Shown one piece after another: positions 38,558 through 57,525 of a stretch of 64,000 nt of DNA (position 1 is its first letter; every line of letters begins with the position of its first letter). Source of the DNA: Gemmata massiliana. Lineage in GTDB: Bacteria; Planctomycetota; Planctomycetia; Gemmatales; Gemmataceae. Location of the stretch: assembly GCF_901538265.1 (NCBI RefSeq), contig NZ_LR593886.1, positions 3,394,843-3,458,842 of the forward strand, given 5' to 3'. A program made the translations under genes and the position numbers. The notes under the pieces are model-generated. The model had not been told where the DNA came from. It searched no databases and worked only from the letters and a program-made list of their open reading frames with translations.

Positions 38558-38719
38558 CGCTTCTCCCGTTGTCGGACGGATAGGGGCCGCGTTCGAGTTG
38601 GTGGATTCACTTGATGATAACGGAAAATACTCTCAATTTTCACTAAATTGTGTGGGTAAGCAGGTGTTCTGGATGAGGGAATCCCTTTCAGCGTTCACAA
38701 CGGAAGGGCTTCCACGCGA

Positions 38720-39552
38720 TTTCGGACGCGGCCGGGGATCGGTTCCAGGATTTGCTCCCCGGTCATCGGGCAACCGAGTTAGCTCGCAGCCGACAACCGC
38801 CTGCTCATCGACGCGGTGCTCTGGATCGCCGGGTTGGGTTTCCTGGCGCGATTTGCCCGAGCGGTTCGGCAAGTGGAACTCGGCTTGGCGCCGGTTCGAC
38901 TGTTGGGCTCGTAAGGGCACATGGGCAGCGGTGTTTGAGGTACTGCAAGACCCGGACCTGGAGTGGCAGCCCTCAACTTGACTGTGATCCGGGTTCACCA
39001 GCACGCCGCGGGAGCCCCAAAAAAGCCGACGGCACCGGGGCCAGGAAAATCAAGCGTTGAGCCGAAATCAGGGTGGATTCGGAACCAAGATCCACACCAC
39101 GGTGAACGGGTTGGGCTCCCGGTCCGCTTGATCCGGGGCCAGGATCAAGCAGCCGACGTGTCGCAAGCGCGAACTCTGATCGAGGGGATCCCGTTCGAGA
39201 GTCGTGGTCGGGGACAAGGGATACGGCTCGAAGGATGTTGTGGCCGCGGTCGAGGATCGCGGCGGTGAGTCCGTGATCCCGAGTCGAGCGAACGGGACCG
39301 CGCCGCATGAAACCGATTGGTCGCGATACAAGGGCCGGAACTTGGTCGAGTGGTTTTGGTCGAAGGCTTTGTGGTACGCGCCCGGTCGATCACGTAGTTT
39401 TGCGATCAGTGGGTTATGCCCGTTCCATCCCGAGCCACGTGATCGACCGGGCGCGTACCGCGAAGCCGTACCGCTGAGTTGCGACCCGGTTCGAGAAGAA
39501 GGCCCAGAATCTCCTGGCGTTCGTTTACGCGGCCTCGATCACGCTAAAGTAG
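38720..39552 (+). pseudogene. Decayed IS5-family transposase
   Basis: Pieces of one IS5-type transposase lie in order but in different frames: WRDLPERFGKWNSAWRRFD, then VIRVHQHAAGAPKK, GLPVRLI, SQARTLIEGIPFE, VGDKGYGSKDVVAAVE, VIPSRANGTAPHETDW and finally VATRFEKKAQNLLAFVY ending at TAG 39550-39552. Several frameshifts, an internal stop and an 87-bp palindromic insertion make it non-functional. The left limit is approximate. It marks the left edge of the mobile-element-rich island. Confidence 0.8.
39373..39459. repeat. Palindromic insertion inside the IS5 remnant
   Basis: A perfect 23-bp inverted repeat (39373-39395 and 39437-39459, beginning GGTACGCGCCCGG) flanks a 41-bp loop. It interrupts the transposase between WSKA and AKPYR-like codons, so it was inserted into the gene. 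It looks like a short mobile hairpin element; CGAAG occurs on both sides near the junctions. Confidence 0.7.
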
Positions 39553-39590
39553 CCCAAAGGCCCAACGTTTCCTGGGCCTTGTCCACGCGC

Positions 39591-40708
39591 CCTTATCTCG
39601 ACTGGTGCCGATTCGGGGTAGCCGCCCGCGGCGGGGTAGCATGAGTGTTACTGAGGTCTCGTGCCCCTCGCCCACGGACGGTCGCCGTGATTCCACCACC
39701 CGAGGCGCGGCCCCGGGTCGCCGCGCTCGGGTTCTCATTCACGGGACCGACGTACCCGCGGTTCTCGGCGCCCCTGGTCGGTGCGGACCACCGGTCGGCG
39801 CACCGTGGCCAACTCGTTGCGCGCGCCCCGTCGTCGGGCACCGGGGCACCGACTACCCGCGCGTCCGGTCTCGCGCCCGTGGTCGGGACGGGCGCGCGGG
39901 TGCGCCCTGATGCGGCTCGTGCTCGGCCGCCTCGTCACCGACGGGCCGGTGTACCCGGTCGGTGGCGCTACGGCACCCACGAGCCGGGCGCGGTTCGGGC
40001 ACCGGCACCGGACCCGGCTCGTGTTGGTGAGCACGTTGCACCCGGACGCCAACCTGTTCGACCCGCCCCCCGCCGTACAACGGGCCCGGGTGCCCACGGG
40101 TTAAGGGCACGCGCCGGGCGAAGCCCCGAGGGGGCGTTGCCGCCGCCGCGGCCTTCGCCCGGTTGGAAGTCGGGTGGTACGGGGCGGGAAGCGGCGTGTC
40201 GCGGCCCTCGACGGGACCGGTCACGGGTACAAGGCCGGTGAGGGGCTGGTCCCATTGCGCGCGGGGTTCGTCAAGGACACCACGGCACGCACCGGGAGGG
40301 CAAGCCGACGCCTTCGACCGTGATCGGTCACTACTGCGGGCGCCGGAGCATCGAAACCACGTTCCAGGAAGCCCGGTCGGGACTCGGATTGGAGACCACG
40401 CGCGGGTGGCGCGAGAACACGGCCCTCCGCGCCGGCCCGTGCCTGTTGGGGTTGCACTCGGTGGTCGCGTTCCTGTTCCCCGCGCCCCGGAGCCGAAGCG
40501 GGTCGGTGCCGTGTCGTGGCCCGGCAAGGCGACCGCCACGTTCGCCGGCGCCCGGAGCGCCGTCCGCCGGTGGCTCTGGGCCGCAGCTCTTCTTCCGCGG
40601 GCCGGTGCGGACGCGGTCCTCGATAAACGGCCCACCGCCGTGCGGGAAGTACGGCTTACTACGCTCGCGCCGGCGGCCCGAGCACCCGGAATCGGCTCCA
40701 GTCGAGCT
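39591..40708 (+). mobile_element. Dead IS4/IS701-like element, copy A
   Basis: A 1118-bp element present again in inverted orientation at 51691-52808 with at least one base difference (C at 40306 versus T at 52093). Ends are 18-bp inverted repeats: CTCGACTGGTGCCGATTC (39597-39614) and GAATCGGCTCCAGTCGAG (40689-40706), one mismatch. Transposase pieces in several frames include TRLVLVSTLHPDANLFDPPP and GRRSIETTFQEARSGLGLET, the region with the last catalytic Glu of DDE enzymes of this superfamily. No open frame spans the element. No clear target duplication flanks either copy. Confidence 0.85.
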
Positions 40709-40710
40709 CC

Positions 40711-41182
40711 TGACCGCTGCGCAAAGGCGGTCGAACTTCTTGGCCCCTAAAATGGGGTATGGAGTCTTTGGACTTCGCCCCTGGTGATTGGCGCGAGTGG
40801 CGGAGGTTTCGAGCCTTGCAACTCAGGGAGCAGGGCGGGTTTCAGCGGCGCAGCGCCACGGCCTTGGGAGTCATCGAGGACGCCGTCAGCTGTTGGCTCG
40901 TGCGGACCCGCAACAGTGGTCCCGAAACGACGAATCGGGTTCTATCTGTTACCAGAGTTGGGGCGTAAGTGCGGACCAAGGGCCCAGGCCCGGTGATCCG
41001 CGAGAAGCAAACGCGGGACCACCTGTCGGTCATGGGCGGGATGACCCGGAGGGCCAGGTCTATACCTTGGCGAGACGAGCTCGCCATCGGTCGGCTGCGC
41101 CAGAAACCTCGCCTGGTCCAAGCCTTCTTTGTCCAGGCCGGATTGGGGCTATGAAAGTTCGACCGCCTTTGCGCAGCGGTCA
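40711..41182 (+). mobile_element. IS630-derived deletion element (MITE-like) with perfect 28-bp ends
   Basis: Bases 40711-40738 (TGACCGCTGCGCAAAGG...) and 41155-41182 are perfect inverted repeats. Inside are an IS630 N-terminal helix-turn-helix piece (WREWRRFRALQLREQGGFQ...ALGVIEDAVSCWL, from 40759) and a short C-terminal piece (HLSVMGGMTRRAR, from about 41010); the middle with most of the catalytic core is missing. At 472 bp it cannot encode a transposase but could be moved in trans. It abuts copy A of the IS4/IS701-like element by two bases. Confidence 0.8.
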
Positions 41183-41241
41183 GTAACACTACTCCGTTAG
41201 AAGCCCGCACCCGACAGTCGGGTTCGGGTCTCTAACCGGTC

Positions 41242-41417
41242 ATGAAGACATACACTCCGAACCTCGACCTGGCCGTTCTCGACCGCCTGCGCGAGTGCGC
41301 GGCCCTATTTGCCCCGGACTTCCCCCCGGCCAAGCCCGCGCGCTGGGCCGGGGGGTACCTGCACGGCCTCCTGACCGACAGCGAGCGCAGGAGGCTGGGC
41401 GTGCGCCCGGACACCTT
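41242..41417 (+). pseudogene. IS701-like transposase N-terminal fragment
   Basis: LDRLRECAALFAPDFPPAKPARW and YLHGLLTDSERRRL match the N-terminus of IS701-type transposases. The similarity stops near 41417, where an oppositely oriented IS5 piece begins. Only about 55 codons remain. Confidence 0.65.
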
Positions 41418-41429
41418 CTGGCCCGCCTC

Positions 41430-41766
41430 GATGGTCTTCACCGACGGGCGGTCGATGATTCCCGCGCGCGGGGTCGGTTCCCTCGTCGCGTGCCCGGATC
41501 TCGGATCGGAGGGCGTTATGTACCGGCTCCCAAACCCCGGCCTCGTGCCACGTGTAGAAGCCGTACGAGACCGTCTCCCGGGGTGGGACGTCGTGCGGCA
41601 ACATGCGCCACGTGCGTCCGCCCCAGACCAAGTCGAGGGCGGCGTTGACCACCTCCCGCAGGGGTACGTGCGGGAGGTGGTCCGGCCATCGCCCTGCGGG
41701 AATAGGTGCCCGATGTTGTCCCGCGGGATCCGTCAGGTCGCTCGGGTGGCGCTCACAGGTGCTCAT
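41430..41766 (-). pseudogene. IS5-family transposase N-terminal fragment
   Basis: Read from ATG 41766: HPSDLTDPAGQHRAPIPAG, LREVVNAALDLVWGGRTWRML, PHDVPPRETVSYGFYTWHE and HNALRSEIRARDEGTDP, the N-terminal DUF4096-like part of IS5 transposases; SVKTIEAG follows in a shifted frame. It is truncated where it meets the IS701-like fragment. Confidence 0.65.
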
Positions 41767-41814
41767 ACCCGAATGGTAGAGACCGCTCCAAACGGCCCTC
41801 GGGGCCGCTTCCTA

Positions 41815-42724
41815 GGGCGTGTTGACATTCCTCATCTTTCCTACACAACGAGTCGGAGTGTTTTACGTGTCGATGGATGTGGGTGGGCGATGCGTTACGT
41901 GCTCACGGACGACCTGTGGACGACACTGGAGCCCCTGGCCCGGCAGGCCAAGTGGTACAAGGGCGGGCAGAAGCCCGTGTTGTTGGATTGGGGCTTCTTC
42001 GAGGCGCTCTTGTACCTGGCCCGTACCGGTATCCCGTGGCGCGACTTGCCCCCGGAGTTCGGGCGCTGGGACGCGGTGTACAACCGGTTCCGCCGGTGGG
42101 TCGCATCCGGTGGGCTCCGGGTTCTGTTCGAGGGGACGACCACCGATCCCCGGTTCGGGGCTGTTCGCCGAGTGTTCATCGATTCGACTATCGTGCGCGC
42201 CCACCAGCATGCGGCCGGGCGCGGCGCAAGCATAAAAGATCGGGGCCACGCGCGTGGCCCAGGCTCAAGCCCTCGGGCGCGGTCGGGGCGGGCTGAGCGG
42301 GCTGAGCACCAAGATCATCGCGACCATCGCCGACGAGGACACGGTGCTCACGGTGGACGTGGTCCCCAGACAAGCGGGCGATGCGCCGCTGCTGGTTCCA
42401 GTGCCGGACCGCACCTTGGCGCGCGGCCCGGTGGACGAGATCGTCGGGGACAAGGCCTTTGACGGTGACCAGTTGCGATGCGACTGCTTAAACCGGGAGG
42501 TGAACCCGAACATCCCACTCAAGTCCAACCGAGATCCGGATCAGTGGGTATTCGATACCGACAGCTACAAGGAGCGGAACCGGGTCGAGCGCCTGTTCGG
42601 CAAAGCCAAACCGTTCCGCCGCATCGCCACCCGGTACGAGAAGCTCAAGGTCACCCACTTCGGGCTGTTACACGTGGTTCTCGGCTTCATACGCCTGCGC
42701 AAACTGAGGAACGTCAACACGCCC
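41815..42724 (+). mobile_element. IS5-family insertion sequence (IS427-like), nearly intact
   Basis: A 910-bp element with 20-bp terminal inverted repeats, GGGCGTGTTGACATTCCTCA at 41815-41834 and its complement at 42705-42724 with one mismatch, flanked by TA on both sides (41813-41814, 42725-42726), the expected short target duplication. The stop codon of the second frame (TAG 42725) is formed with the target base pair, a feature of compact IS5 elements. This is the youngest-looking element in the left half of the island. Confidence 0.85.
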
Positions 42725-42727
42725 TAG
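41890..42727 (+). CDS. IS5-family transposase in two overlapping frames
   Basis: The first frame (from ATG 41890) encodes MRYVLTDDLWTTLEPLARQ, GIPWRDLPPEFGRWDAVYNRF and FIDSTIVRAHQHAAG, including the first catalytic Asp. The second frame (open from 42236 to the stop at 42725-42727) encodes LSTKIIATIADEDTV, DEIVGDKAFDGDQL (second Asp) and RNRVERLFGKAKPFRRIATRYEKLK (catalytic Glu). The change needed is +1 (or -2), near CATAAAAG at 42231-42238. IS427-type elements often use programmed frameshifting; here it may be that or a disabling mutation. Confidence 0.75.
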
Positions 42728-43071
42728 ACGGCCATTTAGAGCCGCGTATTATTACCTCGGTCGGTAACAATCGCACATATTATGCGGTTGCAGCGTAGAG
42801 CATACCGGGTGCGGGAAGTGGTTTCGAACGTATCCGGGGCGTTTGTGCAGTCGGTTCACGAACCCTTGCACGCGGGACCGTAACTCGCCCTTGTTGTTCG
42901 GCACCCCCGCCGCGTTCACCGCCCCTCCAAGTCGTTGTTCCGGTACTCCGTCACGGGCGTCGGGTAGGAGGATCCCCTCCCGACGGATGGGAGGTGTCAG
43001 CGTGGTATGCGTGAGCAACTTATAAGCCGGGGTAATAGTGCTACAAATCAATCACTCTCGTAAATGCGATT
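42728..43071. other. Unassigned 344-bp segment
   Basis: Between the IS5 element and the long hairpin. A 99-codon minus-strand frame (42752-43051) has no recognisable family and no Shine-Dalgarno; I do not call it a gene. Probably debris of older insertions. Confidence 0.4.
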
Positions 43072-43233
43072 TACGACCTCGAGCAGCTTGGAAGTAACAT
43101 CGTCTGGCGCAGCGCTTGGAAGCCCTGACACAACCTTGAAAATGCCTTGGAAATCCGTGATTTGAGGAGGTTGTGTCAGGGCTTCTTAGAACTCCAGGCG
43201 ATCTCTATCACTTCCAAGCCGCTCAAAGTCGTA
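43072..43233. repeat. 162-bp long imperfect hairpin, MITE-like
   Basis: The two halves are complementary along their length: TACGAC (43072-43077 / 43228-43233), GAGCAGCTTGGAAGT (43081-43095, 14 of 15 with 43210-43224), ATCG.CTGG in the middle, and a perfect 18-bp core GAAGCCCTGACACAACCT (43119-43136 / 43168-43185) around a 31-nt loop. It ends 14 bp after the stop of the surface-protein gene, so it also forms its transcript's 3' end. Confidence 0.75.
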
Positions 43234-43247
43234 GCTCACTACAATAA

Positions 43248-46200
43248 TTAACCCACCCACATCTTGCCCTTGGAGTCTGAGAAAGGATCAGAGACTCGAA
43301 TAACGGAGGGCGAAGCACCAATCGTAGGTAAACCTCCACCCGCAAAAGCAATTAGCGAATCCCAAGATGCAGCCAGAACGTCAGATTTACCGTCACCATT
43401 CAAATCCCGCGCGGCCACGCGAACTCCGGTCACAAAATCGACGTTTGGCGGCAGGAACTGGGCAAGGAGAACTTGGGCATTAGATTGAACAAGCGATTTA
43501 CCAGAATACGCGACCACTCTACCGTTACCCCACTCGCCTGCGCCCAGAATCAGATCGCCATATCCGTCAGAATTCATATCTCCAATCGCAAGAGATACAC
43601 CCTTACCAGTCACAACCGAACCGGGAGAAAAAGAGTTAAACATTGCAATCGGAGTACCGCCGACTCGCAGCGAAGAACCATCGAAACCAAATACAGCTGT
43701 ACCAGTCGTATATAAACCAGCAACTGCAAGATCGGCTTTTCCGTCAGCATTGAGATCGCCAAGAGCCAATCGCGTTTGCCCCCAGTACCCAATCACAGGA
43801 CCAGCCAGAAACTCAGTCAATTTTGCATAATTCCCGCCGCGATACACCCGCACACGCGCCCCGCCTTCGTCAGTACCTAGCGCAATGTCAGCGATGCCGT
43901 CTCCTGTTACATCTCCAACGGCAACCGACACCTGACCGTAGTAATAGTTCGCTCCGAGTAGCTGCTCCGAACGCACTTTTCCAGTTGCCCCATCAATAAT
44001 AACTGCCTGCGAAAACATACCCCCCTTCGACCCGACGACCACATCGGGGATACCGTCACCAGTCACATCACCAGTGGCTACGCTCGCCCCACCTGTATAG
44101 CTATCACCAAAGGGGCGAACTCGGAAGCGAACCGAGCCGTCCGAATTAAAGAGTGCAACTGTCGTTACAGGCCCCGCATCGGTTCCCACTGCATACGGCT
44201 GCCCAGTCGCGTTGACCGTGAGTGTGGCACTACCAACCACCGAGGACGTGGCTTTATCGGCCAAGTTAATCGAGCGAGTACCCGAGGTCCGGAGCGTGAT
44301 AGTAAACGTGTGGACTCCGGCATCAGCAGCGGTGAACGTGTAATCAGACGGGAGCCCTGCCAACACGTCACTACTCGTGAACCGAACCGTACCACGGTAC
44401 CCGGTTGCAATGTTACCGTATGCGTCTTTTGCAGTTGCAGTGACGCTAAACGATGATCCTGAGGCCGCAACCGTCGGAGCCGACAATTGGATTACACTCA
44501 CCGTCGCCGCGTTGACCGTGAGTGTGGCACTACCAACCACCGAGGACGTGGCTTTATCGGCCAAGTTAATCGAGCGAGTACCCGAGGTCCGGAGCGTGAT
44601 AGTAAACGTGTGGACTCCGGCATCAGCAGCGGTGAACGTGTAATCAGACGGGAGCCCTGCCAACACGTCACTACTCGTGAACCGAACCGTACCACGGTAC
44701 CCGGTTGCAATGGCCCCAGAGTTGGCAATAGCGGTCACTGTGATTGTGAATGATGAGCCCGCAGCTGTTATTGACGGAGCCGACATTCCGAACTTTGCAA
44801 CTACTACTGCACTCTCAACAACCGCGCCTCCCGACCCGCCACCAGTGTACTCAAAGGCACCTAGATCCAAAGCCCTTCCAGCAACTAATCTGGGACGACT
44901 CGTCCGAGGATCGAGGTACTCGCGATCGACTGGGTGGGCTGAGAGCGTCCCCGCTATTTGGCCCGATGCGTCAATTGCAGCTGAAGTCGCCTTGAGGTGG
45001 TAATCCCCATTTGTCGGAGACACAAAGCCGGGCTCGACAGACGATCCAATAATCAGATTTTTGGTTCCACCAGCATGTCCAGTAAAGGCTCCGAATGAGA
45101 TCGCATAATTTGAAGGCACCCAATTTTGCCCAAAGTATGCATTATTATTATCAGCTACCAAATTGAATACTGGCGATCTAGCACCAGCAGTATTAGGGAC
45201 CGCAGCAAAAATATTATTCCTCGCGTCTACTGTTTCGCCACTCGTAGCCAGCTTGACACCAGTTATCTTGTATACCTGGCTGGCATCCGATCTGGTAATC
45301 ATCGTATTATTATAGAGCGAGAGGATGCCCTTGCGATATTTCACATCTTGCCCACCATCTCCGCCATAAAACACAATCGACGAAGCGCTGCCGGATGGAG
45401 CAACAAGAGTGTTACCGTATACAAACACTTGATGATAGCTTTCAAGGGTGACGGCCAAGTCAGATTGATTCTCAGCCTCCGGGAGTTGAAGCTGGTGCGC
45501 GCCGCCCTCAATGTAATTATTCCTAATGATAAGTCCGACCGAACGATCTTTCAGACCTGCACCGAGGGCGCCCGACCTGAGTGAGCCATAACGATTATTC
45601 TGATACAGTGTATCAATTCCTTCGATATAAGTATTATGCTGGCGATCGCTACCTATGTTCCCGTTCCCGTAGATGTAATTTCCGTCGAGAGTGACGCCCA
45701 TCAGCAGGCGATCAAACCCGGATTGTCCAGCGCCGAACACCCCTTGCCCATTGCCATTAATCGTGCAGCCCTTAATTGTGACATTCTCGGCACGCTCTAG
45801 ATAAATACCGGCGCCGACTAACCCATATGCCTTTTTCAGACCATTGTAATCGGTAAATGTATTATTCGAATTTCCCTGATATGCGTTTTGCACCTGAAGA
45901 TTCTGTATTGTAATATAGCCCGGCTTGTAGCCAACCGCGTAATTCGGTCGGACGCCAATAACTACGGCTCCGGAACCACTGAGCGCGGCGTAACTGTTGA
46001 CAAATTGTGGCGCAAGAACGGCTTGGTATCCGTCGATTACAGGCAAGGCACCGGTAACCGGATCGGGAATTCCGTTAATAGTGATCCTTGCGGTCGCCGT
46101 CCCTCGCGTTGAGATCTGAAACAGTTCGTGGTAGCCGCCCGGCTTATAGTGAATGTTGACCGTATCACCTGGCCCGAGCTTGCTCCAATCCAGATCGGCG

Positions 46201-47219
46201 ATATTCTGATATTTCTGGCCCGGCCCGATATCGTACACGCGGGGCACACCGGTCCCCGCACTCGGGGTAACCACACCAAATCCCGTCCCGAAAAGCGAGT
46301 ACATTACATCGCTTGATGGTACGGCGTAACCCGAATCACCAGCGCCATTCGTTGCTCTGACTCTGTACACATATGCGCTTTCAGCAGCCGTTCCGGTGTC
46401 AGTAAACGACGTAGCCCCCGGCGTGGTCAGGCCAATTTGAGTCCACGCCATCGTCTTCCACGGGTTGTATACTGCGCGCTCAACCCTAAATCGGGTACTC
46501 GCTGTGTCATTGTTTGTCCAAGAAATCGTAACGGAGGTTGCCGCATTCGCGACAGCCTGAAGGGCAGTCGGCTCGTGTGGGATTCCGGCCGCACGGGAAG
46601 GAAGGGCGACCGCTGCGGGGGCCGAATAGTCGGAAGTCGGCGCATTCCAAGAATAACCGCGAACCCGGTAAGAATATGCCCCCCCCGGCGCGAGCCCTGT
46701 ATCCACCCACGTCGTCGAAGTGCCAAGCGATTTAATAATCTGATACGAGACACCATCAGCCGACCTCTCGAGCATGTATCCGCGTAGGGCGTCGCCGGGG
46801 TTTGGATCCGTAAACGAGATCGTTGCGGTAGTCGGAGAAGTAGCCTGGGCAAGCAGATTTGTGACGCGAACGAGCGCACCAGAGGCGACCGATTTGGTAG
46901 CCGCTACTGATACCGCGCTGTAGGGCGTCGGACCGGTTGCGGTAAGAGTGCGCACACGATAATTGTAGGCCGTTCCGGCCCAGCCGCTGGTGTCGGTAAA
47001 TGTGTTCTCGTTAGACGGGAGAACAGTTAAAGTTTGGAATGCGCCCGTTGAGCCCACAGAACGCTCGACCACCACTGCCGTGTCAGCAGTGCCCGTGAGA
47101 TCCCAAGTCAGATTGACCTCAGATTGAGACAGAGCCAAACTTGTGAGGTTTACAGCGTTAAGCAAATCTCGGGATTCCAGCGATTCGAGCCGCGGGCCAA
47201 TCGACGAATTCCGTCTCAT
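43248..47219 (-). CDS. Giant surface protein: FnIII-like, beta-helix, repeat and FG-GAP domains
   Basis: A 1323-aa exported protein. The N-terminus (RRNSSIGPRLESLESRDLL) is the planctomycete leader seen on large surface proteins; no classical signal peptide. About 20-320 hold three fibronectin-III-like repeats (YNYRVRTLTATGPTPYS, YSYRVRGYSWNAPTSDYS, YVYRVRATNGAGDSGY). About 325-790 is a right-handed beta-helix (IYLERAENVTIKGCTINGNG), as in pectate-lyase-like proteins. About 800-1010 has two near-identical 100-aa repeats (YRGTVRFTSSDVLAGLPSD). The end has FG-GAP/VCBS repeats (VATGDVTGDGIPDVVVGS) with calcium-binding Asp clusters. The gene is less GC-rich than the backbone. ATG 47219 precedes the leader motif; an upstream start at 47336 is possible. 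Role in adhesion or glycan binding is inference. Confidence 0.88.
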   Translation of the reverse strand: MRRNSSIGPRLESLESRDLLNAVNLTSLALSQSEVNLTWDLTGTADTAVVVERSVGSTGAFQTLTVLPSNENTFTDTSGWAGTAYNYRVRTLTATGPTPYSAVSVAATKSVASGALVRVTNLLAQATSPTTATISFTDPNPGDALRGYMLERSADGVSYQIIKSLGTSTTWVDTGLAPGGAYSYRVRGYSWNAPTSDYSAPAAVALPSRAAGIPHEPTALQAVANAATSVTISWTNNDTASTRFRVERAVYNPWKTMAWTQIGLTTPGATSFTDTGTAAESAYVYRVRATNGAGDSGYAVPSSDVMYSLFGTGFGVVTPSAGTGVPRVYDIGPGQKYQNIADLDWSKLGPGDTVNIHYKPGGYHELFQISTRGTATARITINGIPDPVTGALPVIDGYQAVLAPQFVNSYAALSGSGAVVIGVRPNYAVGYKPGYITIQNLQVQNAYQGNSNNTFTDYNGLKKAYGLVGAGIYLERAENVTIKGCTINGNGQGVFGAGQSGFDRLLMGVTLDGNYIYGNGNIGSDRQHNTYIEGIDTLYQNNRYGSLRSGALGAGLKDRSVGLIIRNNYIEGGAHQLQLPEAENQSDLAVTLESYHQVFVYGNTLVAPSGSASSIVFYGGDGGQDVKYRKGILSLYNNTMITRSDASQVYKITGVKLATSGETVDARNNIFAAVPNTAGARSPVFNLVADNNNAYFGQNWVPSNYAISFGAFTGHAGGTKNLIIGSSVEPGFVSPTNGDYHLKATSAAIDASGQIAGTLSAHPVDREYLDPRTSRPRLVAGRALDLGAFEYTGGGSGGAVVESAVVVAKFGMSAPSITAAGSSFTITVTAIANSGAIATGYRGTVRFTSSDVLAGLPSDYTFTAADAGVHTFTITLRTSGTRSINLADKATSSVVGSATLTVNAATVSVIQLSAPTVAASGSSFSVTATAKDAYGNIATGYRGTVRFTSSDVLAGLPSDYTFTAADAGVHTFTITLRTSGTRSINLADKATSSVVGSATLTVNATGQPYAVGTDAGPVTTVALFNSDGSVRFRVRPFGDSYTGGASVATGDVTGDGIPDVVVGSKGGMFSQAVIIDGATGKVRSEQLLGANYYYGQVSVAVGDVTGDGIADIALGTDEGGARVRVYRGGNYAKLTEFLAGPVIGYWGQTRLALGDLNADGKADLAVAGLYTTGTAVFGFDGSSLRVGGTPIAMFNSFSPGSVVTGKGVSLAIGDMNSDGYGDLILGAGEWGNGRVVAYSGKSLVQSNAQVLLAQFLPPNVDFVTGVRVAARDLNGDGKSDVLAASWDSLIAFAGGGLPTIGASPSVIRVSDPFSDSKGKMWVG
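44208..44412 (-). repeat. 205-bp exact repeat, copy 1, inside the surface-protein gene
   Basis: Identical at every base to 44508-44712; the period is exactly 300 bp. Encodes most of one 100-aa Ig-like repeat. Confidence 0.95.
44508..44712 (-). repeat. 205-bp exact repeat, copy 2, inside the surface-protein gene
   Basis: Second copy of the repeat at 44208-44412. Perfect nucleotide identity points to recent duplication or gene conversion and makes the locus prone to expansion or loss by recombination. Confidence 0.95.
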
Positions 47220-47715
47220 AAAAATGCGTACCTGGGTTATTGTCGGCTTCCCCAACAGGAGGCGCGAGTTAGGATGTTGTGCGGGTGCGAGTTCCCGCAG
47301 CCACGCGCCGAACACCCTTAAGAGTTGGGCGGCCATTCACGTGATTACTGGGGTATAGTTTGAGGAACCGACAATGCAAACGTGATGAATCAACTTAGCG
47401 TCGGGGTATAGTTTTCTCGTCTAACGGGCCACCACCTTCCGCTAAAGGCTCTAAAAATTAACTATTTTCAGAACCACAGAGGTACTGGGAACTGGTGTCG
47501 TAAAGAATCTGAGTATCCAAAAAGGCCGACAGTAACAATCAGACAATGGACCCAGGAAAAGGCCGGTTTTTAAGCCCCCGTCATAAAACCGAGATGTCCT
47601 CTCAATTCCTAGTGGCAGCGAGCAGGAGTGGCACCTGGATTTTGCCGCAATTGAGCTTAAAATCGCTAAACTTACCCACTGGAGCTCGCTGTCCACTGTA
47701 AGGAATGTGATTGGA
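47220..47715. other. Divergent promoter region with a repeated 12-mer
   Basis: No supported gene. GGGGTATAGTTT occurs at 47350-47361 and 47403-47414, 53 bp apart (about five helical turns), between the divergent surface-protein and glycosyltransferase genes. This would suit a regulator controlling one or both. The remainder is AT-rich. Confidence 0.45.
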
Positions 47716-48786
47716 ATGCCGCAACCAATGCTACATGTCGTCCACGTCGTCGGTCAATTTGAAATGGGCGGGATGGAAAAGCTGCTCGTCGAGTTCGCAC
47801 GGCACTGCGATCGAGACCGATTTAAACTCTCATTCCTCGCTCTTGGAAAACGTGGGATTGTCGCAGATGAGATTGAATCTCTCGGTTGGCCAGTTGAATC
47901 ACTTGGATTAGCACCCGGGTTGGATCCGTGGCTCATTATTCGACTCGGCCTGCTCTTCCGCAGATTGGGAGTGGACGTTGTTCATACGCACAACACGCGC
48001 CCACTACTTTATGCAGGACCAGCGGCAAGTTTGGCACGAGTCAAACGCGTAATTCACACCCGCCACGGACAGAGGTTCAAAGCGCCTCGCCACGAGAATG
48101 CTATGTTCCGACTCGCAGCTTTGACTGCGAATCGCGTCGTTTGCGTCTCACACGACAGCGCCCGGCTGACTCGAGCGGAAGGTGTCGCCCCCCGACGAAT
48201 CCGAACGATTCTCAACGGCATAGACACCACGCGATTTCAACCCGCTACCCCAGAGCACGTTAACCCGGCACTTGCGGTAGGGCGTTTCAGCCCCGAAAAG
48301 GATTTTGCGAATCTAATTCACGCGGCTGCAATTGCCGTTCGATCGGACCCGACGTTTCGGCTTGACATTGCAGGAGATGGTAAATGTATGCCCGAAATCC
48401 GCCAGCAAGTTGCTGACTTAAATCTGGGCCGCACAGTCCAACTCCTCGGTCAGATCAGCGACATCCCAACCCTATTAACGCAAGCAAGTTGCTTCACGCT
48501 GGCGTCTTTGACTGAGGGTATTTCACTCACCATTCTTGAAGCAATGGCAGCAGGTCTACCAGTAATCGCGACCCGAGTTGGCGGAAATCCCGAAATCATT
48601 GCAGAGGGTGAGACTGGCCTTCTAGTGCCCGCCTCAAACCCAGAAGCACTTGCCAAAACGCTACTGACGCTTTGGCAAGATTCGACTCGCCGCCGAAAAA
48701 TGGGCGACGCTGGGCGCGCTCGCATTCAGAAAGAATTCGACGTTCGTAAGATGGTAATTGAATATGAAAGGCTATATCTTGAGTAG
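47716..48786 (+). CDS. Glycosyltransferase family 4 (GT-B)
   Basis: A 356-aa retaining glycosyltransferase. The N-terminal acceptor domain starts HVVHVVGQFEMGGMEKLL with the glycine-rich loop; the C-terminal donor domain has AVGRFSPEKDFANLI and the E-x7-E motif in EGISLTILEAMAAGLPVIA. It probably adds a sugar to a lipid-linked or exopolysaccharide intermediate at the inner membrane face. Start: ATG 47716 chosen over a GTG at 47707; AAGGA lies upstream. First gene of a three-gene plus-strand set with the CapK-like enzyme and a second GT4. Confidence 0.9.
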   Translation: MPQPMLHVVHVVGQFEMGGMEKLLVEFARHCDRDRFKLSFLALGKRGIVADEIESLGWPVESLGLAPGLDPWLIIRLGLLFRRLGVDVVHTHNTRPLLYAGPAASLARVKRVIHTRHGQRFKAPRHENAMFRLAALTANRVVCVSHDSARLTRAEGVAPRRIRTILNGIDTTRFQPATPEHVNPALAVGRFSPEKDFANLIHAAAIAVRSDPTFRLDIAGDGKCMPEIRQQVADLNLGRTVQLLGQISDIPTLLTQASCFTLASLTEGISLTILEAMAAGLPVIATRVGGNPEIIAEGETGLLVPASNPEALAKTLLTLWQDSTRRRKMGDAGRARIQKEFDVRKMVIEYERLYLE

Positions 48787-48872
48787 CGAGGCGGAATCCC
48801 GCGCTGCACGGGCTCCATCGCAAAGTGTTAACAGGAAACAACAAAAATATACCGCATTATGGAAATCTGACG

Positions 48873-50261
48873 ATGCTGACTTGGCTCCATCGCAACTTTG
48901 TCCTTCGCCCTTTTGAAGGAATGGTTAAGGGGCGAAACACGTTTCGCTACTGGGGCGAACTGGAGCGAACGCAGTGGCTCTCTCGCACTGAGCTAGAATA
49001 CCGGCAACTCGAATCTCTACGCCGCTTACTCAGCCACAGTTACCAGAATTGCCCATACTATCGGTGCGAGTGGGACCGACTCGGGCTAAAGCCAAACACA
49101 GTTCACACCCTCGCCGACTTCCACGATTGGCCCATCCTTACAAAAGAAGCGATCCGCATCAACCGTGCCCAGATGCGATCATCTGTTCCAGGCCAACAGA
49201 TGATCGCCAAAGCCACGGGTGGCTCAAGTGGGGCTCCGCTCCAGTTCGACCTCAACTTGGAGAGCCACGAGCGCCGGGTCGCGGCCACATATCGTGGTTA
49301 CAATTGGGCCGGCGCCGGACCTGGCACCAAACAATTCTTCCTTTGGGGTGCAGCTCTCGGAGATCGGACCTGGAAACAGTATGCGAAAGATCGCCTCTAC
49401 GACTGGCTCAATCGCCGCATTACTATCAATTCGTTTGAATTCAGTCGCGCGAAGGTACCCGAGTTCAACAACAGGTTAAACCGATTCCGCCCGGATGTTA
49501 TCGTCGCTTACACCAACCCACTCTACGCGTTCGCCCAAAGCCTCGAAGAACTAAAACAGATCCCGTACTCGCCACGCTCGATCGTCGTCGGTGCCGAGAA
49601 AATCTACCCGTTCCAACGTGAGCTAATCGAGCGAGTATTCCGTGCACCTATATTCGAGACCTACGGCGCGCGAGAGTTCATGATAATCGGTGGCGAATGT
49701 GACCGACACGCAGGTCTGCACCTTACCACGGAAAACCTAATCGTCGAGGTTGTGGATGATCAGGGACATCCGACCCCAGATGGGGAAGAAGGAAATGTCG
49801 TCATCACTGACCTGACGAACTACGGCATGCCGTTCGTGCGATACATCAACGGAGACCGCGCAGTCGCCGGATTCACAGAGTGTCCGTGCGGGCGCGGGCT
49901 CCCGCTTTTGCGAAAGGTTGTCGGCCGGCAACTTGACATGATTGATACCCCGGACGGCCGGAGGGTGCCAGGTGAGTTCTTTCCTCACCTCCTGAAAGAT
50001 TTCCCAGCGGTTGAGCGATTTCAGGTAGTCCAGGAGTCAAACTCGCGGGTAGAAATTCGATTGGTGCTTCGCCCCGGATGGGATGACACAAGTCGTATTC
50101 GACTTGATGCTGAATTGCGTAAAGTGCTTGGCTCCACAATTGCCATCGACGTGACACCGGTCGCAAGCATCCCGTTAACAGCCGCGGGGAAACTCCGGGT
50201 TGTAGTGCGCACATCCGGCAGCGCATCAGAACTCACACCAAGCGCGAATCGGACCAAGTAA
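48873..50261 (+). CDS. CapK-like adenylate-forming enzyme (phenylacetate-CoA ligase-like)
   Basis: A 462-aa protein of the CapK / PaaK-like adenylate-forming group. Motifs: ATGGSSGAPLQF (P-loop-like ATP motif), ETYGAREFMIIGGEC, VVITDLTNYGMPFVRYINGD and a Cys cluster TECPCGRGLPLL. CapK-like proteins occur in capsule and exopolysaccharide loci, where their substrate is mostly unknown. ATG 48873 (MLTWLHRNFVLRP) is the likely start; a GTG at 48825 is in frame. It lies between two glycosyltransferase genes, 86 bp after the first. Confidence 0.85.
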   Translation: MLTWLHRNFVLRPFEGMVKGRNTFRYWGELERTQWLSRTELEYRQLESLRRLLSHSYQNCPYYRCEWDRLGLKPNTVHTLADFHDWPILTKEAIRINRAQMRSSVPGQQMIAKATGGSSGAPLQFDLNLESHERRVAATYRGYNWAGAGPGTKQFFLWGAALGDRTWKQYAKDRLYDWLNRRITINSFEFSRAKVPEFNNRLNRFRPDVIVAYTNPLYAFAQSLEELKQIPYSPRSIVVGAEKIYPFQRELIERVFRAPIFETYGAREFMIIGGECDRHAGLHLTTENLIVEVVDDQGHPTPDGEEGNVVITDLTNYGMPFVRYINGDRAVAGFTECPCGRGLPLLRKVVGRQLDMIDTPDGRRVPGEFFPHLLKDFPAVERFQVVQESNSRVEIRLVLRPGWDDTSRIRLDAELRKVLGSTIAIDVTPVASIPLTAAGKLRVVVRTSGSASELTPSANRTK

Positions 50262-50442
50262 CTAAGACAAACGAAACAATCCCGAAGTACGGGAGAGATT
50301 CAGGCACAAGTATGAATAACCACACGCACGCACACACGGTGTGTGTCAATGCAAAATCATCGTTTTCAACAATTTCGCCCCAAACTAACGCACCGCCAGC
50401 ATACTCAAACGACATGCCAAAAAAGCCCTAAATGGGAATGTA

Positions 50443-51645
50443 ATGAGAATTCTAACAGTCACGAACCTCTACCCAAACCCCTTCCAACCACAGCGAGCCA
50501 CATTCAACCGTGAGCAAATCCGCGCGCTGGCATGCGAACATCAAGTCATCGTCATCTCGCCGATTGCTTGGACTGACGAACTTACAGCCCGACGCACGGG
50601 AAGCCCACCTCTACCTCATGGTCGGCGCATGTATTGGGATGATGTAGCCGTCGAGTATCCGCGATCGTGGTTTATTCCCCGCGTGTTCCGAGGCTCTTAC
50701 GGCAAATTATTCCAGTGGTCTCTTGCAAATACATTCTACCGCGTTGCGCGCGAATTCCGACCAGATATAGTGTTCGCAACGTGGGCCTATCCGGACGGCT
50801 GGGCTGCGATTCGTCTGGCACACAAAACCGATTTACCCATAGTTTTGAAGGTTCATGGATCGGACGTGCTCGAACTCGACAAGCACCCTTCCCGCCGAAA
50901 AGGGACCATCGAAGCACTCCAGCAAGCAGACCGCGTCGTGGCCGTAAGTCGTGATCTCGCCACCAAGGTACTCGAACTCGGTGCTACCCCCGAGCGCATA
51001 CACCTCATTTACAACGGAGTCGATCAACGTATCTTCTTTCCCGGTGATCGAATTGAAGCACGTCAAAGGCTGGGATTGGACCAAAAACGCCCGGCGATCC
51101 TCTATGTGGGCAACCTCGTCCAAATTAAAGGGCCAGATATCCTTGTAGATGCGTGCGGACGGCTCGCAAAACAGGGCATCGAGTTCGACCTGCACATAGT
51201 GGGCAAAGGTCCGATGCGTCAAAACCTCGAGCGACAAGCTGCAATCTGCGGGATTGCCGGTCGAACCCGTTTTTACGGAACAATCCCACACAACCATTTG
51301 CCTGACTGGTTCCGGGCCGCGACAATGCTCGTGCTACCCAGTCGATCTGAAGGAGTGCCCAACGTCCTATTGGAGGCGTCGGCGTGCGGCACACAGTTTG
51401 TCGCCAGTTGCGTTGGCGGTGTGCCCGAAATCGCTCACCTTGGTGCGAGCCGGCTGTTCAAGCCGGGAGATCCGAACCAACTCGCGAACGCAATCGCTGA
51501 AACACTCGACAATCCACCAGATCAACCGATCAGCCTAACACGCCGAACACAAGCTGTCGTCGCTCAAGAACTCGGCTCGGTATTTCAATCTGCCATTCGG
51601 AAAGATCCATTGATAGCGAGTGGAACAATATTCTGGCCAAAATAA
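50443..51645 (+). CDS. Glycosyltransferase family 4 (GT-B)
   Basis: A 400-aa GT4 enzyme with an N-terminal domain MRILTVTNLYPNPFQP, VLKVHGSDVLELD, a donor domain starting ILYVGNLVQIKGPDILVDA, and E-x7-E in EGVPNVLLEASACGTQFVA. It resembles exopolysaccharide transferases of the EpsF/PimB type; the donor sugar is not predictable. The gene ends 45 bp before copy B of the inverted IS element and appears complete. Further biosynthesis genes (polymerase, flippase) are absent here. Confidence 0.9.
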   Translation: MRILTVTNLYPNPFQPQRATFNREQIRALACEHQVIVISPIAWTDELTARRTGSPPLPHGRRMYWDDVAVEYPRSWFIPRVFRGSYGKLFQWSLANTFYRVAREFRPDIVFATWAYPDGWAAIRLAHKTDLPIVLKVHGSDVLELDKHPSRRKGTIEALQQADRVVAVSRDLATKVLELGATPERIHLIYNGVDQRIFFPGDRIEARQRLGLDQKRPAILYVGNLVQIKGPDILVDACGRLAKQGIEFDLHIVGKGPMRQNLERQAAICGIAGRTRFYGTIPHNHLPDWFRAATMLVLPSRSEGVPNVLLEASACGTQFVASCVGGVPEIAHLGASRLFKPGDPNQLANAIAETLDNPPDQPISLTRRTQAVVAQELGSVFQSAIRKDPLIASGTIFWPK

Positions 51646-51690
51646 ATTTGTCATCGTGGCCATTTTATGGCCTGCATTTTCCGCGAGCTT

Positions 51691-52808
51691 AGCTCGACTG
51701 GAGCCGATTCCGGGTGCTCGGGCCGCCGGCGCGAGCGTAGTAAGCCGTACTTCCCGCACGGCGGTGGGCCGTTTATCGAGGACCGCGTCCGCACCGGCCC
51801 GCGGAAGAAGAGCTGCGGCCCAGAGCCACCGGCGGACGGCGCTCCGGGCGCCGGCGAACGTGGCGGTCGCCTTGCCGGGCCACGACACGGCACCGACCCG
51901 CTTCGGCTCCGGGGCGCGGGGAACAGGAACGCGACCACCGAGTGCAACCCCAACAGGCACGGGCCGGCGCGGAGGGCCGTGTTCTCGCGCCACCCGCGCG
52001 TGGTCTCCAATCCGAGTCCCGACCGGGCTTCCTGGAACGTGGTTTCGATGCTCCGGCGCCCGCAGTAGTGACCGATCACGGTCGAAGGCGTCTGCTTGCC
52101 CTCCCGGTGCGTGCCGTGGTGTCCTTGACGAACCCCGCGCGCAATGGGACCAGCCCCTCACCGGCCTTGTACCCGTGACCGGTCCCGTCGAGGGCCGCGA
52201 CACGCCGCTTCCCGCCCCGTACCACCCGACTTCCAACCGGGCGAAGGCCGCGGCGGCGGCAACGCCCCCTCGGGGCTTCGCCCGGCGCGTGCCCTTAACC
52301 CGTGGGCACCCGGGCCCGTTGTACGGCGGGGGGCGGGTCGAACAGGTTGGCGTCCGGGTGCAACGTGCTCACCAACACGAGCCGGGTCCGGTGCCGGTGC
52401 CCGAACCGCGCCCGGCTCGTGGGTGCCGTAGCGCCACCGACCGGGTACACCGGCCCGTCGGTGACGAGGCGGCCGAGCACGAGCCGCATCAGGGCGCACC
52501 CGCGCGCCCGTCCCGACCACGGGCGCGAGACCGGACGCGCGGGTAGTCGGTGCCCCGGTGCCCGACGACGGGGCGCGCGCAACGAGTTGGCCACGGTGCG
52601 CCGACCGGTGGTCCGCACCGACCAGGGGCGCCGAGAACCGCGGGTACGTCGGTCCCGTGAATGAGAACCCGAGCGCGGCGACCCGGGGCCGCGCCTCGGG
52701 TGGTGGAATCACGGCGACCGTCCGTGGGCGAGGGGCACGAGACCTCAGTAACACTCATGCTACCCCGCCGCGGGCGGCTACCCCGAATCGGCACCAGTCG
52801 AGATAAGG
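51691..52808 (-). mobile_element. Dead IS4/IS701-like element, copy B (inverted)
   Basis: Inverted copy of the element at 39591-40708, same length. The ends are CTCGACTGGAGCCGATTC (51693-51710) and the matching GAATCGGCACCAGTCGAG (52785-52802). The same frame breaks as in copy A are present, so the copies were made from an already dead element, or one has been converted by the other. The only base difference I noticed is T at 52093. Confidence 0.85.
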
Positions 52809-52904
52809 CGACGCGCGAGCGAATGATCAAGGGCGTGCGCCAGGTGGACGCGATGTACAGGATCGCCAGTCCCTCGGCGAAGCGGAGCCGCGCGGCGATG
52901 TGCT

Positions 52905-53110
52905 GAGCCTGCTGGGCGCATTGGCGGATTGAGAGCCAGTTGCATTACGTCCGGGACGTGACGCTGGGGAGGGAGGGGGTGTGCTGTGTGCGCCGCCTCC
53001 AAGTCTTGGCCGCTCTACACAACGCCGTGGTTCACTTGTTGGCGGGAACCGGAAACGGTGTCGAAGCCATTTTGACCTCCGCGGCACCGATCCGACTCCG
53101 CGCCGCCTCA
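52905..53110 (+). pseudogene. ISAs1-family transposase C-terminal fragment
   Basis: ESQLHYVRDVTLG and QVLAALHNAVVHLLAG match the conserved C-terminus of ISAs1 transposases. Only this end remains, with at least one frame break. Limits are approximate. Confidence 0.65.
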
Positions 53111-53154
53111 AGGAGCGTGTCGCGTAACAGTTCGCGGTCTCGGTCCGTGACTTG

Positions 53155-53280
53155 TTACTCGCATTGGTCAAGCACCTGACCTGCCGGTGCCAGGTCGTGC
53201 ATCTGGGCCACGAACGCAATGGCACGTTCGACGGCCTGACGCTCTACTTTCGTTTGGTATTCAGACGTTCCTGTTGGCAT
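53155..53280 (-). pseudogene. Truncated N-terminal fragment, possible mobile-element ORF
   Basis: ATG 53280, with GGAGG just upstream, starts MPTGTSEYQTKVERQAVERA; an in-frame stop comes after 41 codons. The similar composition past the stop in another frame (TDRDRELLRDTLLEAA) suggests a longer ancestor. I cannot name the family. Confidence 0.45.
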
Positions 53281-53369
53281 AAACCACCTCCGGCCACGTG
53301 AGGTCGGAGCGTAACACAATCTACCTACTTCGAGAAGCATACAGGGTCGTTGCGTTATTCGCGCTGGGG

Positions 53370-54255
53370 ATGCCGATAAGCTTCTGGGTGTGTTGGGTGG
53401 GAGCGGTGGCGAGTCGGTGGAGCCGGGCGTTGCGCGAGGCCGCGAGCACCTGTGGAGCGGCCCCGGCGCACGCGGCATGCATCCTCGCGTAGGGTCACAT
53501 CGCGCACGTAATGCGGTTGGTTCTCGATGCGCCAGTAGGACCGAACCCATCCCAGAAGGGCTCGCGCGTCGGCCCGCGGGTGACAGGCTGGTGATCCCAT
53601 ACACGACCTCGAGCGTCGTCGCACCGCCCCCGGTCCGCGTGCGGGGCATCCGGAACCCCTGCTTCAACCCCTTCCACCGGTCGTGGGCGGTCAGGATCGG
53701 GTTGGTCCGCAGGGTTCGCGGCTCGAGGCGCCGTGCCCCTTGTCGACCGTCGTGGCCTGGCGCCCAGTTGCTCGGGCGCGGGGACCGGCTCAGGGGGAAG
53801 TGGCCGCACTGATCCCGCGGGCAGCGTCCTCGAACCCCAACCCGGCTTCGATGTCGGTCACCAACCCGGGTCGGTTGCCCTTGGCGACCAGCACATAGTC
53901 CGCGCCCCCGTCGCGGCGACATCCCGCTGACAGAACATGGCATCCCCGGTGAGTACCGACCCGGCCACTTGCTTGGGCCGAACCGGGACCGGGTGGACGC
54001 GGCCGGTGTCTGACCGCGCCGGAACCCGAGCGCGCGGGCCAACGGGTGCCCGTGTTGGCGCCCGAACCGGGCGATTCCCCGGAGGCTCGTGCGCCCCATC
54101 CGCACCACCAACGTGACCAACCCGAGCACCGCCGGGAGCGGGTGGATCGGACCTTGCAACCCACGCGGGTCGGGAACCGGTCGCCAATTCGTCGTACAAG
54201 GAACGCGCGGGCATTGGGCACCTCCACCCGGAAGACGGCCCCATCTACCCAACCC
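53370..54255 (-). pseudogene. Decayed ISAs1-family transposase
   Basis: Ordered pieces in different frames: VPDPRGLQGPIHPLPAVLGL, GIARFGRQHGHPLARALGF, LTGDAMFCQRDV, DYVLVAKGNRPGLVTDIEAG, then HDRWKGLKQGF, VVYGITSLSP and YWRIENQPHYVRDVTLREDA. A deletion has removed the part between the N-terminal region and the first catalytic motif. Limits approximate. Confidence 0.75.
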
Positions 54256-54300
54256 ACACACACCGAGGTGAGATCGGGAACGGTCCTGGAGAAGGATACC

Positions 54301-55705
54301 CGTTTGCGAGGTGCAGTAATTGATTCTGGCAGTTTGGTGCGTTCGTGTGTAGCGTGCGGGAACCCGGAGGTATCCCGATGCCACGCCGCACGTTCCACAC
54401 GGAGACGCCGCTCGAAGCGCTACTTGTCGAGCACGCCTTGCTCCTCGCTCGCCAACTCCAGAAGACCGCCGACGCGCCCGACGGGACGGTTCTATCTGCG
54501 GTCGAATCCGCCGCCGTGCCCGGAGCACGGGAGCTGGCACGCCGAGACGTCGAAGCCGCGCTCCAACAACAGGCCCGCGCGGTCGAAAACGGGGGGCCGC
54601 GAACCGCGCGGGCCCCGACTGCGACCAACCATCCCGCAACAAGGCGCGCCCAACGAACCGTCCTGACCGCCGGGACCGTGCGCCTGACGCGCCTGTATCC
54701 GGTGTGCCCGGCGTGCCGCGCGTCCCACTACCCACTCGACGTGCGCCTCGGGACCGATGGGTTCGTCAGCCCACAGGCCCAGCGCCTGTTGTGCCTGGCC
54801 GGGGCAGTTGGTCGTTCGACCGGGCCAGCTCCAACCTCAAGGAGTTCTGCGGGCTGTCGGCCTACGACAACACCGTCCGCGCGGTCTGCCATGCGCACGG
54901 CGGGGCCATGCGGGACGGGCAACGGGACGCCCCGGATGCGCACACGACGTTCCGTGCGGCCGAGGGCGACGCCGAGTTCCAGACCGACGGGACGATGGTC
55001 CACACGACGAGTGGCTGGCGGAAGATGCGGCTTTCGATCTTCGCCAAGCGCAACCGGGGCGGCCGAGCGGTGGGACCAAGCGGTGGCAGCAACGCGACCT
55101 GCCCAAGCCGCACGTGGTCCAGGCGGCGAGCCGAACGGGCGAGCCGTTGGGCCCGGGTTGGTGGCGCATGGCCGTGCGGCTGGGGCTGAGCGACACCAGC
55201 GCGGTCACGGCCCTGGCCGACGGTGTGCGGTGGATCTGGAGCCCGTTGGCCGAGCACCTGCCGGGTTGTGTGGACGTTCTGGACATCTACCACGCCAGCG
55301 AGCACCTGTGGGGGCCGCGCACGCGCACTTCGGCGAAGGTCATTCCGAGGCCCGGGCGTGGGTGGCGCGAACACGTGAGGCACTATTGCGCGGTGGCGCA
55401 TCGGCCCTGTTGTCGGAGTTGGCCGGAGCGGAGTTGGCCGGGTTGCGCGGGTACTTCGAGCCACACGTGGCTCGCACGGGTTACGCCAGTCGGTTGCGGC
55501 TCGGCCAGTCGATCGGCAGTGGCCTGGTGGAGGGCGCGTGCAAGCAGGTGATCGGGCGCCGGTTGAAACAGACCGGGGCGCGGTGGAAGGTGCGACGCGC
55601 CGAGCGAATGGCGGCCCTGTGTGCCATCCAAGCCGGCGGTCAGTGGGACACCTACTGGCTGCACGCCGCGTAAACGCCAGATTCCATTACTGCACCCGTT
55701 TGCGA
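54301..55705 (+). mobile_element. ISKra4-family insertion sequence with 9-bp target duplication
   Basis: The element proper is 54310-55696 (1387 bp). Inverted ends GGTGCAGTAATTGATTCTGGC and, at the right, the complement of GGTGCAGTAATGGAATCTGGC agree at 19 of 21. CGTTTGCGA is repeated directly outside (54301-54309 and 55697-55705), a 9-bp target duplication, as known for this IS group. The intact duplication shows a relatively recent insertion, between a decayed ISAs1 and an older transposase remnant. Confidence 0.85.
54378..55673 (+). pseudogene. ISKra4-family transposase, frameshifted
   Basis: ATG 54378 has GGAGG (54366-54370) 7 nt upstream. Frame 1 gives TETPLEALLVEHALLLARQL and CPACRASHYPLDVRLG; a frame change near 54805 leads to SFDRASSNLKEFCGLSAYDN and FQTDGTMVHTTSGWRKMRLS; another near 55065-55090 to DVLDIYHASEHLW; and one near 55315 (in a GTGGGGGCC run) returns to the first frame for GQSIGSGLVEGACKQVIGRR. 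All breaks fit one-base losses in G-rich runs, so either very recent decay or sequencing error. Confidence 0.8.
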
Positions 55706-55709
55706 GAGG

Positions 55710-57340: not shown

Positions 57341-57525
57341 GACTCGCTCCGCACGAGAGTTGCGGCGAAATCCACCCGCCCTCTTCCTAATCCCGCGCCC
57401 CGAGAATCACAAGACCTACCGCAAACCGTGGCGTGACCTCCGTTTGCGATGTTCGGAGCGATTCGACTGGCTCATTTGGCTGGCACTCATATAATTTCTC
57501 GTTGTCACATTATCCGGGAGGCAGA

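Follow-up and report, generated by a model that had tools for sequence, protein, structure and literature searches.

Gene content and composition of the stretch

We examined a stretch of lowered GC content at positions 43248-51645 of a 64-kb window of the Gemmata massiliana chromosome (G000:C1:3394843-3458842, where G000 is the source genome, a single contig of 10.1 Mb). Four open frames fill the stretch: BH, which encodes a large secreted-type protein, on the minus strand, and then GT_A, CapK and GT_B, which encode two GT4 glycosyltransferases with an adenylate-forming ligase between them, on the plus strand (Table 1). A preliminary description of this DNA had recognized a beta-helix/FG-GAP protein, two GT4s and a CapK-like ligase, and had read them as a horizontally acquired exopolysaccharide (EPS) and surface module. 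Pfam searches and alignment to Protein Data Bank (PDB) structures confirmed those gene assignments, and the EPS/surface theme was right.

The Pfam matches of BH to FG-GAP and fn3 lie above the cut-off and that to Beta_helix below it. The beta-helix part gave no match at E 0.1 in a sequence search of the PDB, and single-sequence structure prediction for it yielded a mean pLDDT of 29.9 and no usable fold. We set the BH start at an internal ATG (MRRNSS...), the listed open reading frame (ORF) reaching 47336, because the match in the congener G012 extends upstream with two stops and the G012 ORF begins near the same internal Met. The upstream extension is part of the gap between the 1,233 residues of the G012 ORF and the 1,362 listed for G000. 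The two proteins are 80.7% identical over aligned codons and 63.7% by tblastn with gaps. BH also contains a 300-base tandem repeat, the copies of which (44208-44485 and 44508-44785) are 89% alike.

The nearest NCBIfam model to GT_A is TIGR03088 (PEP-CTERM/XrtA glycosyltransferase), but its 257 bits fall below the cut-off of 409. CapK resembles the solved PaaK-type phenylacetate-CoA ligases (2y27, 2y4o, 4r1l) across residues 46-461, at low similarity and below the curated cut-offs: AMP-binding scores 23.3 bits against 29.9, and 0 of 7 NCBIfam matches exceed theirs. A TGGSSG-type motif, YGxRE, D344 and K456 are conserved in all nine rows of the CapK alignment, and S135 is replaced by T in three. 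CapK thus combines homology to this fold family with its adenylation motifs, the late catalytic lysine included.

The GC content of the stretch is 53.7%, against 64.4% in the remaining window and 62.0-67.4% in 194 overlapping windows of the same length elsewhere in it. The lower GC content noted in the preliminary description is therefore real. Its range of 33-53% for sampled lines is too low, since 82 of the 140 60-base lines in the stretch exceed 53.3% (maximum, 70%) and 41% fall within that range, as do 4% of the 921 lines outside. In the four genes, GC content at third codon positions (GC3) is 0.50-0.60, whereas 26 backbone genes chosen by hand from the window as a reference have a mean of 0.80 (sd 0.05); the corresponding z values are -4.0 to -6.0. 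The low-GC edges are sharp, at ~43.0 kb and ~51.7 kb. Anomalous composition of this kind is one mark of a horizontally acquired island.

Insertion sequences at the borders

An inverted repeat of 1,118 bp frames the stretch, and its two arms, each a decayed copy of the same insertion sequence (IS), differ by one mismatch. IS sequence on both sides had been noticed before; this near-perfect inverted pairing had been overlooked. Two copies of one IS around a cargo are the arrangement of a composite transposon and, with the low GC content and sharp edges, they favor import of the stretch from a distant lineage as such a transposon or as an island. However, we found only broken frames and no intact transposase in the two flanking copies, and no direct target duplication outside them. 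No integrase was seen and no tRNA was found in the 64-kb window, a phage search in near mode gave no match, and a plasmid search returned only distant CapK relatives, all of <60% identity (27-32% among the 8 matches listed).

On both outer sides the inverted repeat continues for six bases (CCTTAT; 39591-39596 and 52803-52808) beyond the IS end, and a third genomic copy differs there. A related IS with an intact 443-aa frame (DDE_5, PF13546) is found elsewhere in the genome. Two such copies with identical intact frames (L005 and L006; G000:C1 ~1.58 and ~1.67 Mb) are possible helper candidates for the decayed window copies.

Inside the left border of the module sits a further, IS5-type element. 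Synteny with G012 is interrupted around the whole arrangement, and the G012 counterparts of the two window flanks lie 2.2 Mb apart. The module is therefore embedded in 18.8 kb of IS-rich DNA at a point of rearrangement.

Table 1. Features of the low-GC stretch and its surroundings (window coordinates)
Feature	Position	Strand	Evidence or remarks
BH, secreted-type protein: fn3, beta-helix, 300-base tandem repeat, FG-GAP repeats	43248..47219	-	Pfam, repeat, G012 orthologue
GT_A, GT4 glycosyltransferase	47707..48786	+	Pfam Glycos_transf_1 134.6 bits (cut-off 26.4); G012 82.7%
CapK/PaaK-like adenylate-forming ligase	48825..50261	+	PDB 2y27 E 2.6e-25; G012 83-84%
GT_B, GT4 glycosyltransferase	50443..51645	+	Pfam Glycos_transf_1 118.9 bits (cut-off 26.4); G012 78.3%
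Inverted repeat left arm, decayed IS with DDE_5-type relatives	39591..40708	+	IS proper ~39597-40706
Inverted repeat right arm, same IS inverted	51691..52808	-	IS proper ~51693-52802
Fragment adjoining left IS	40714..41404	+	IS plus fragment found again at G000:C1:5968200-5969889, 99.3-99.4%
IS5-type insertion sequence, DUF4096 and DDE domains, two frames	41812..42727	+	Pfam PF13340, PF01609; ends by eye
Stretch not syntenic with G012	38643..57438		Synteny stops at 38642, restarts at 57439

Conservation of the four genes in relatives

The congener G012 keeps all four genes, in the same order and orientation, within an EPS locus. Over aligned residues, the module proteins are 78-84% identical to those of G012 and the products of four flanking backbone genes are 82-85% identical. 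At E<=1e-90, four of the 95 family genomes have CapK: G000, G012 (84%), G035 (58%) and G451 (60%, partial). At E<=1e-100, the 392 genomes sampled across the phylum yield five with CapK: G000, G267 (53%), G334 (51%), G372 (50%) and G126 (44%). A scan of wider genome contigs added one distant relative, from Sutcliffiella (31%). GT_A, CapK and GT_B homologues are clustered in G035, G334, G372 and G126; in G267, CapK and GT_B are clustered and a GT_A homologue (30%) lies 6 kb away.

In the CapK tree, G000 groups with G012 (support 100/100) and G035 with G451 (90/90), these four form one group (82/90), G267, G334 and G372 form another (100/99), and G126 falls outside. The tree leaves out the G028 row, whose branch length of about 10 very probably reflects translation of the wrong strand. 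The CapK tree is congruent with taxonomy at the levels of genus, family and class, and the conflict between the two that would mark an island was not seen. This congruence, together with the transposase, target-duplication, integrase, tRNA, phage and plasmid results above, makes import from a distant lineage very improbable. The GT_A and GT_B trees likewise join G000 and G012 (100/100 and 100/99), with deeper forks that are weak or long-branched; the phylum search for GT_B at E 1e-95 returned G000 only, a limit that hides homologues of 36-45%.

At 1e-60, 14 of the 95 family genomes have BH matches, mostly to the C-terminal part, and the long matches outside the genus are in G496 (52%) and G494 (57%). 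The G496 contig with the BH match also carries exosortase-, Wzc- and Wzx-like ORFs (the Pfam check covered the Wzx-like ORF) and partial GT_A and GT_B homologues.

Other pieces of an EPS locus in the chromosome

Genes of the kind that surround the module in relatives are found at two further places in the G. massiliana chromosome. The first, G000:C1:6733055-6721453, matches G012:C2:137030-150649, the block just downstream of the four genes in G012, and contains glycosyltransferases, a sugar dehydrogenase and a TPR gene. The second is an export block at G000:C1:5952876-5960510, with an exosortase, ORFs matching Wzc, EpsI and a Wzy-like protein of the sister species G009, and a Wzx-like ORF. Its exosortase (G000:C1:5952978-5953676; 149.5 bits, above the TIGR02602 cut-off) is 2.5 Mb from the window module.

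The exosortase is linked to EPS genes in both G009 and G035. In G009, exosortase, Wzc, a Wzy-like gene, a GT_B homologue, UGD, GT2, TPR and Wza all lie within ~28 kb, with the GT_B homologue (54.7%) in mid-locus. A copy of the IS compound that borders the module on its left, 99.3-99.4% identical, lies ~4 kb beyond the final glycosyltransferase-like ORF at 5.95 Mb. We infer from these gene arrangements that the stretch in the window is probably the missing middle of the G. massiliana EPS locus.

The proteins of the export block have different affinities. The exosortase, Wzc and EpsI have their closer counterparts in G009, and the Wzy-like gene (G000:C1:5957496-5958818) is 82.6% identical to G012 versus 64.5% to the sister species. 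By these affinities, the EPS locus is a mosaic.

Parts of the system look damaged. The deacetylase at the edge of the 6.72-Mb piece is a 25-residue remnant of 230, and a survey of 40 kb around that block revealed no Wza. Its TPR gene (G000:C1:6721455-6725806) is split into two overlapping frames, through a frameshift or a sequencing error. The module could accordingly be silent, the remnant of an EPS system in decay, a possibility compatible with the other explanations considered here. All four module frames are open, however, and their dN/dS of 0.07-0.12 indicates constraint, though averaged over time preceding any break; we regard a relic as possible but doubtful.

Probable dispersal of a resident locus, or possible exchange with a relative

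Taken together, these results lead us to conclude, with a probability of roughly 70%, that the low-GC stretch is the IS-dispersed middle part of a resident exosortase-type EPS locus. This conclusion rests on the four-gene synteny with the EPS locus of G012, the other locus genes at two further chromosomal places, the union of the blocks in one G009 locus, and the IS compound beside both the module and the 5.95-Mb piece. It rests also on protein divergence like that of the backbone, congruence of the CapK tree and lower GC3 in most other EPS genes. The EPS parts would have been united in an ancestor and later separated by IS transposition or recombination. Horizontal acquisition, the main explanation of the preliminary description, is weakly supported, given the CapK congruence, the synteny with G012 at backbone-like divergence and the locus parts elsewhere in the chromosome. 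That description had held that congruent phylogenies and uniform composition would speak against acquisition. The CapK phylogeny is indeed congruent; the composition is not uniform, which makes exchange with an AT-richer relative a possible, if less likely, alternative.

Such an exchange would have brought in a cassette from an unsampled, AT-richer relative of the same genus or family, inserted at a site rich in IS, with loss of the native counterpart. The module GC3, the patchy distribution of CapK in the family and the mosaicism of the Wzy-like gene all favor it, as do the synonymous changes. The dS values against G012 are 0.99-1.46 in the module, ~2x those of four backbone genes (0.52-0.78), and the dN values are 0.093-0.129 versus 0.076-0.109. 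GC3 of the four G012 orthologues is 0.64, 0.64, 0.85 and 0.79. At 321 fourfold sites of GT_A, CapK and GT_B (outgroup G035), changes unique to G000 number 95 GC>AT and 6 AT>GC, versus 18 and 16 for those unique to G012; this polarizing assumes a GC-rich ancestor. The corresponding G000 counts are 223 to 50 at 1,516 fourfold sites in nine other EPS gene rows, among which the Wzy-like gene runs the opposite way (11 to 15), and 67 to 13 at 732 sites in two backbone genes.

Protein divergence from G012 at the backbone level nevertheless speaks against the exchange, since a donor would have to be as distant from G012 as G000 is. Low GC content is also found in the other EPS pieces: most other EPS genes of G000 have a GC3 below that of the G009 or G012 orthologue, and the middle of the G009 locus is 49-54% GC. 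Low GC content is thus general to EPS genes here and strongest in the module. We consider allelic exchange unlikely, although the composition and divergence data do not separate drift from an old AT-rich donor.

Several observations weigh against dispersal of a resident locus. The doubled dS is one, and the GC>AT bias, strongest in the module, is another, as an AT-rich donor would give the same. A CapK orthologue was not found in the sister species G009 (family search, E<=1e-90), and the outer six bases of the IS pair match as an inverted repeat where a direct target duplication was looked for and not found. The same side of the IS compound faces the 5.95-Mb piece and the module alike, an arrangement that a simple recombination would not by itself account for. 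Finally, ~250 kb separate the export block of G012 (C2:416-424 kb) from the main block of that genome; with the G012 locus itself in two parts, dispersal may be a common feature of the genus, and the order in the ancestor is uncertain.

Predicted function and related systems

The neighbors of CapK in relatives bear on its function. G267 and G372 have a GNAT-domain protein between CapK and GT_B, and a deacetylase-like ORF (by eye) after GT_B. In G012, Acyl_transf_3 and NodB-like genes follow GT_B. G035 has a fusion of its GT_B homologue with a polysaccharide deacetylase domain (L056:4658-6487), which supports a functional link between GT_B and the deacetylase. Based on these conserved acyltransferase and deacetylase neighbors, we propose that CapK provides acyl activation for glycan acylation. 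In the predicted pathway, GT_A and GT_B would extend a lipid-linked repeat unit with sugars, and BH may bind or act on the polymer outside the cell. CapK would adenylate a carboxylic acid for transfer onto the glycan by a partner acyltransferase. The Wzx-, Wzy- and Wzc-like genes of the 5.95-Mb block would serve flipping, polymerization and export.

Similar gene sets are known from exosortase/PEP-CTERM (EpsH) EPS loci, where GT4s, a TPR protein and export genes lie near an exosortase and a CapK-named protein is listed in the PEP-CTERM phylogenetic-profile table (PMC1569441). Unlike these loci, the G. massiliana parts are at three places and have no model-confirmed PEP-CTERM target; a PEP-CTERM-like protein of G012 was recognized by eye and has no NCBIfam match at 1e-5.

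In the psc1 cluster of Rubrivivax gelatinosus, a gene named capK stands beside group 1 glycosyltransferases and wzy, with deacetylase, FemAB-type and PEP-CTERM-type genes, and it was one of those identified by a screen for lost or reduced aggregation (PMC3684757). In contrast to the G. massiliana locus, psc1 is one 75-kb cluster. The preliminary description had taken the CapK-like enzyme between two GT4s as a sign of an unusual glycan modification step. A CapK-like ligase beside GT4s recurs in related loci and in these exosortase-type clusters (PMC3684757, PMC1569441), so the adjacency does not by itself suggest an unusual step.

The sanxan pathway of Sphingomonas sanxanigenens is likewise scattered in an IS-rich genome (PMC5399355); the difference is that G. 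massiliana has three blocks, for a putative polysaccharide. It is conceivable, but quite improbable, that one polysaccharide is still made from the three blocks over 3.3 Mb, with the IS-flanked GT/CapK/BH block inverting or moving as an exchangeable unit of glycan specificity.

Implications

EPS genes that are dispersed in G. massiliana stand in a single locus in its sister species. The stretch also illustrates that a low-GC, IS-flanked surface module need not be an import and can instead have been displaced from a resident locus, which calls for caution where islands are called from composition. The conserved acyltransferase and deacetylase neighbors of CapK suggest a role in glycan acylation that is testable.
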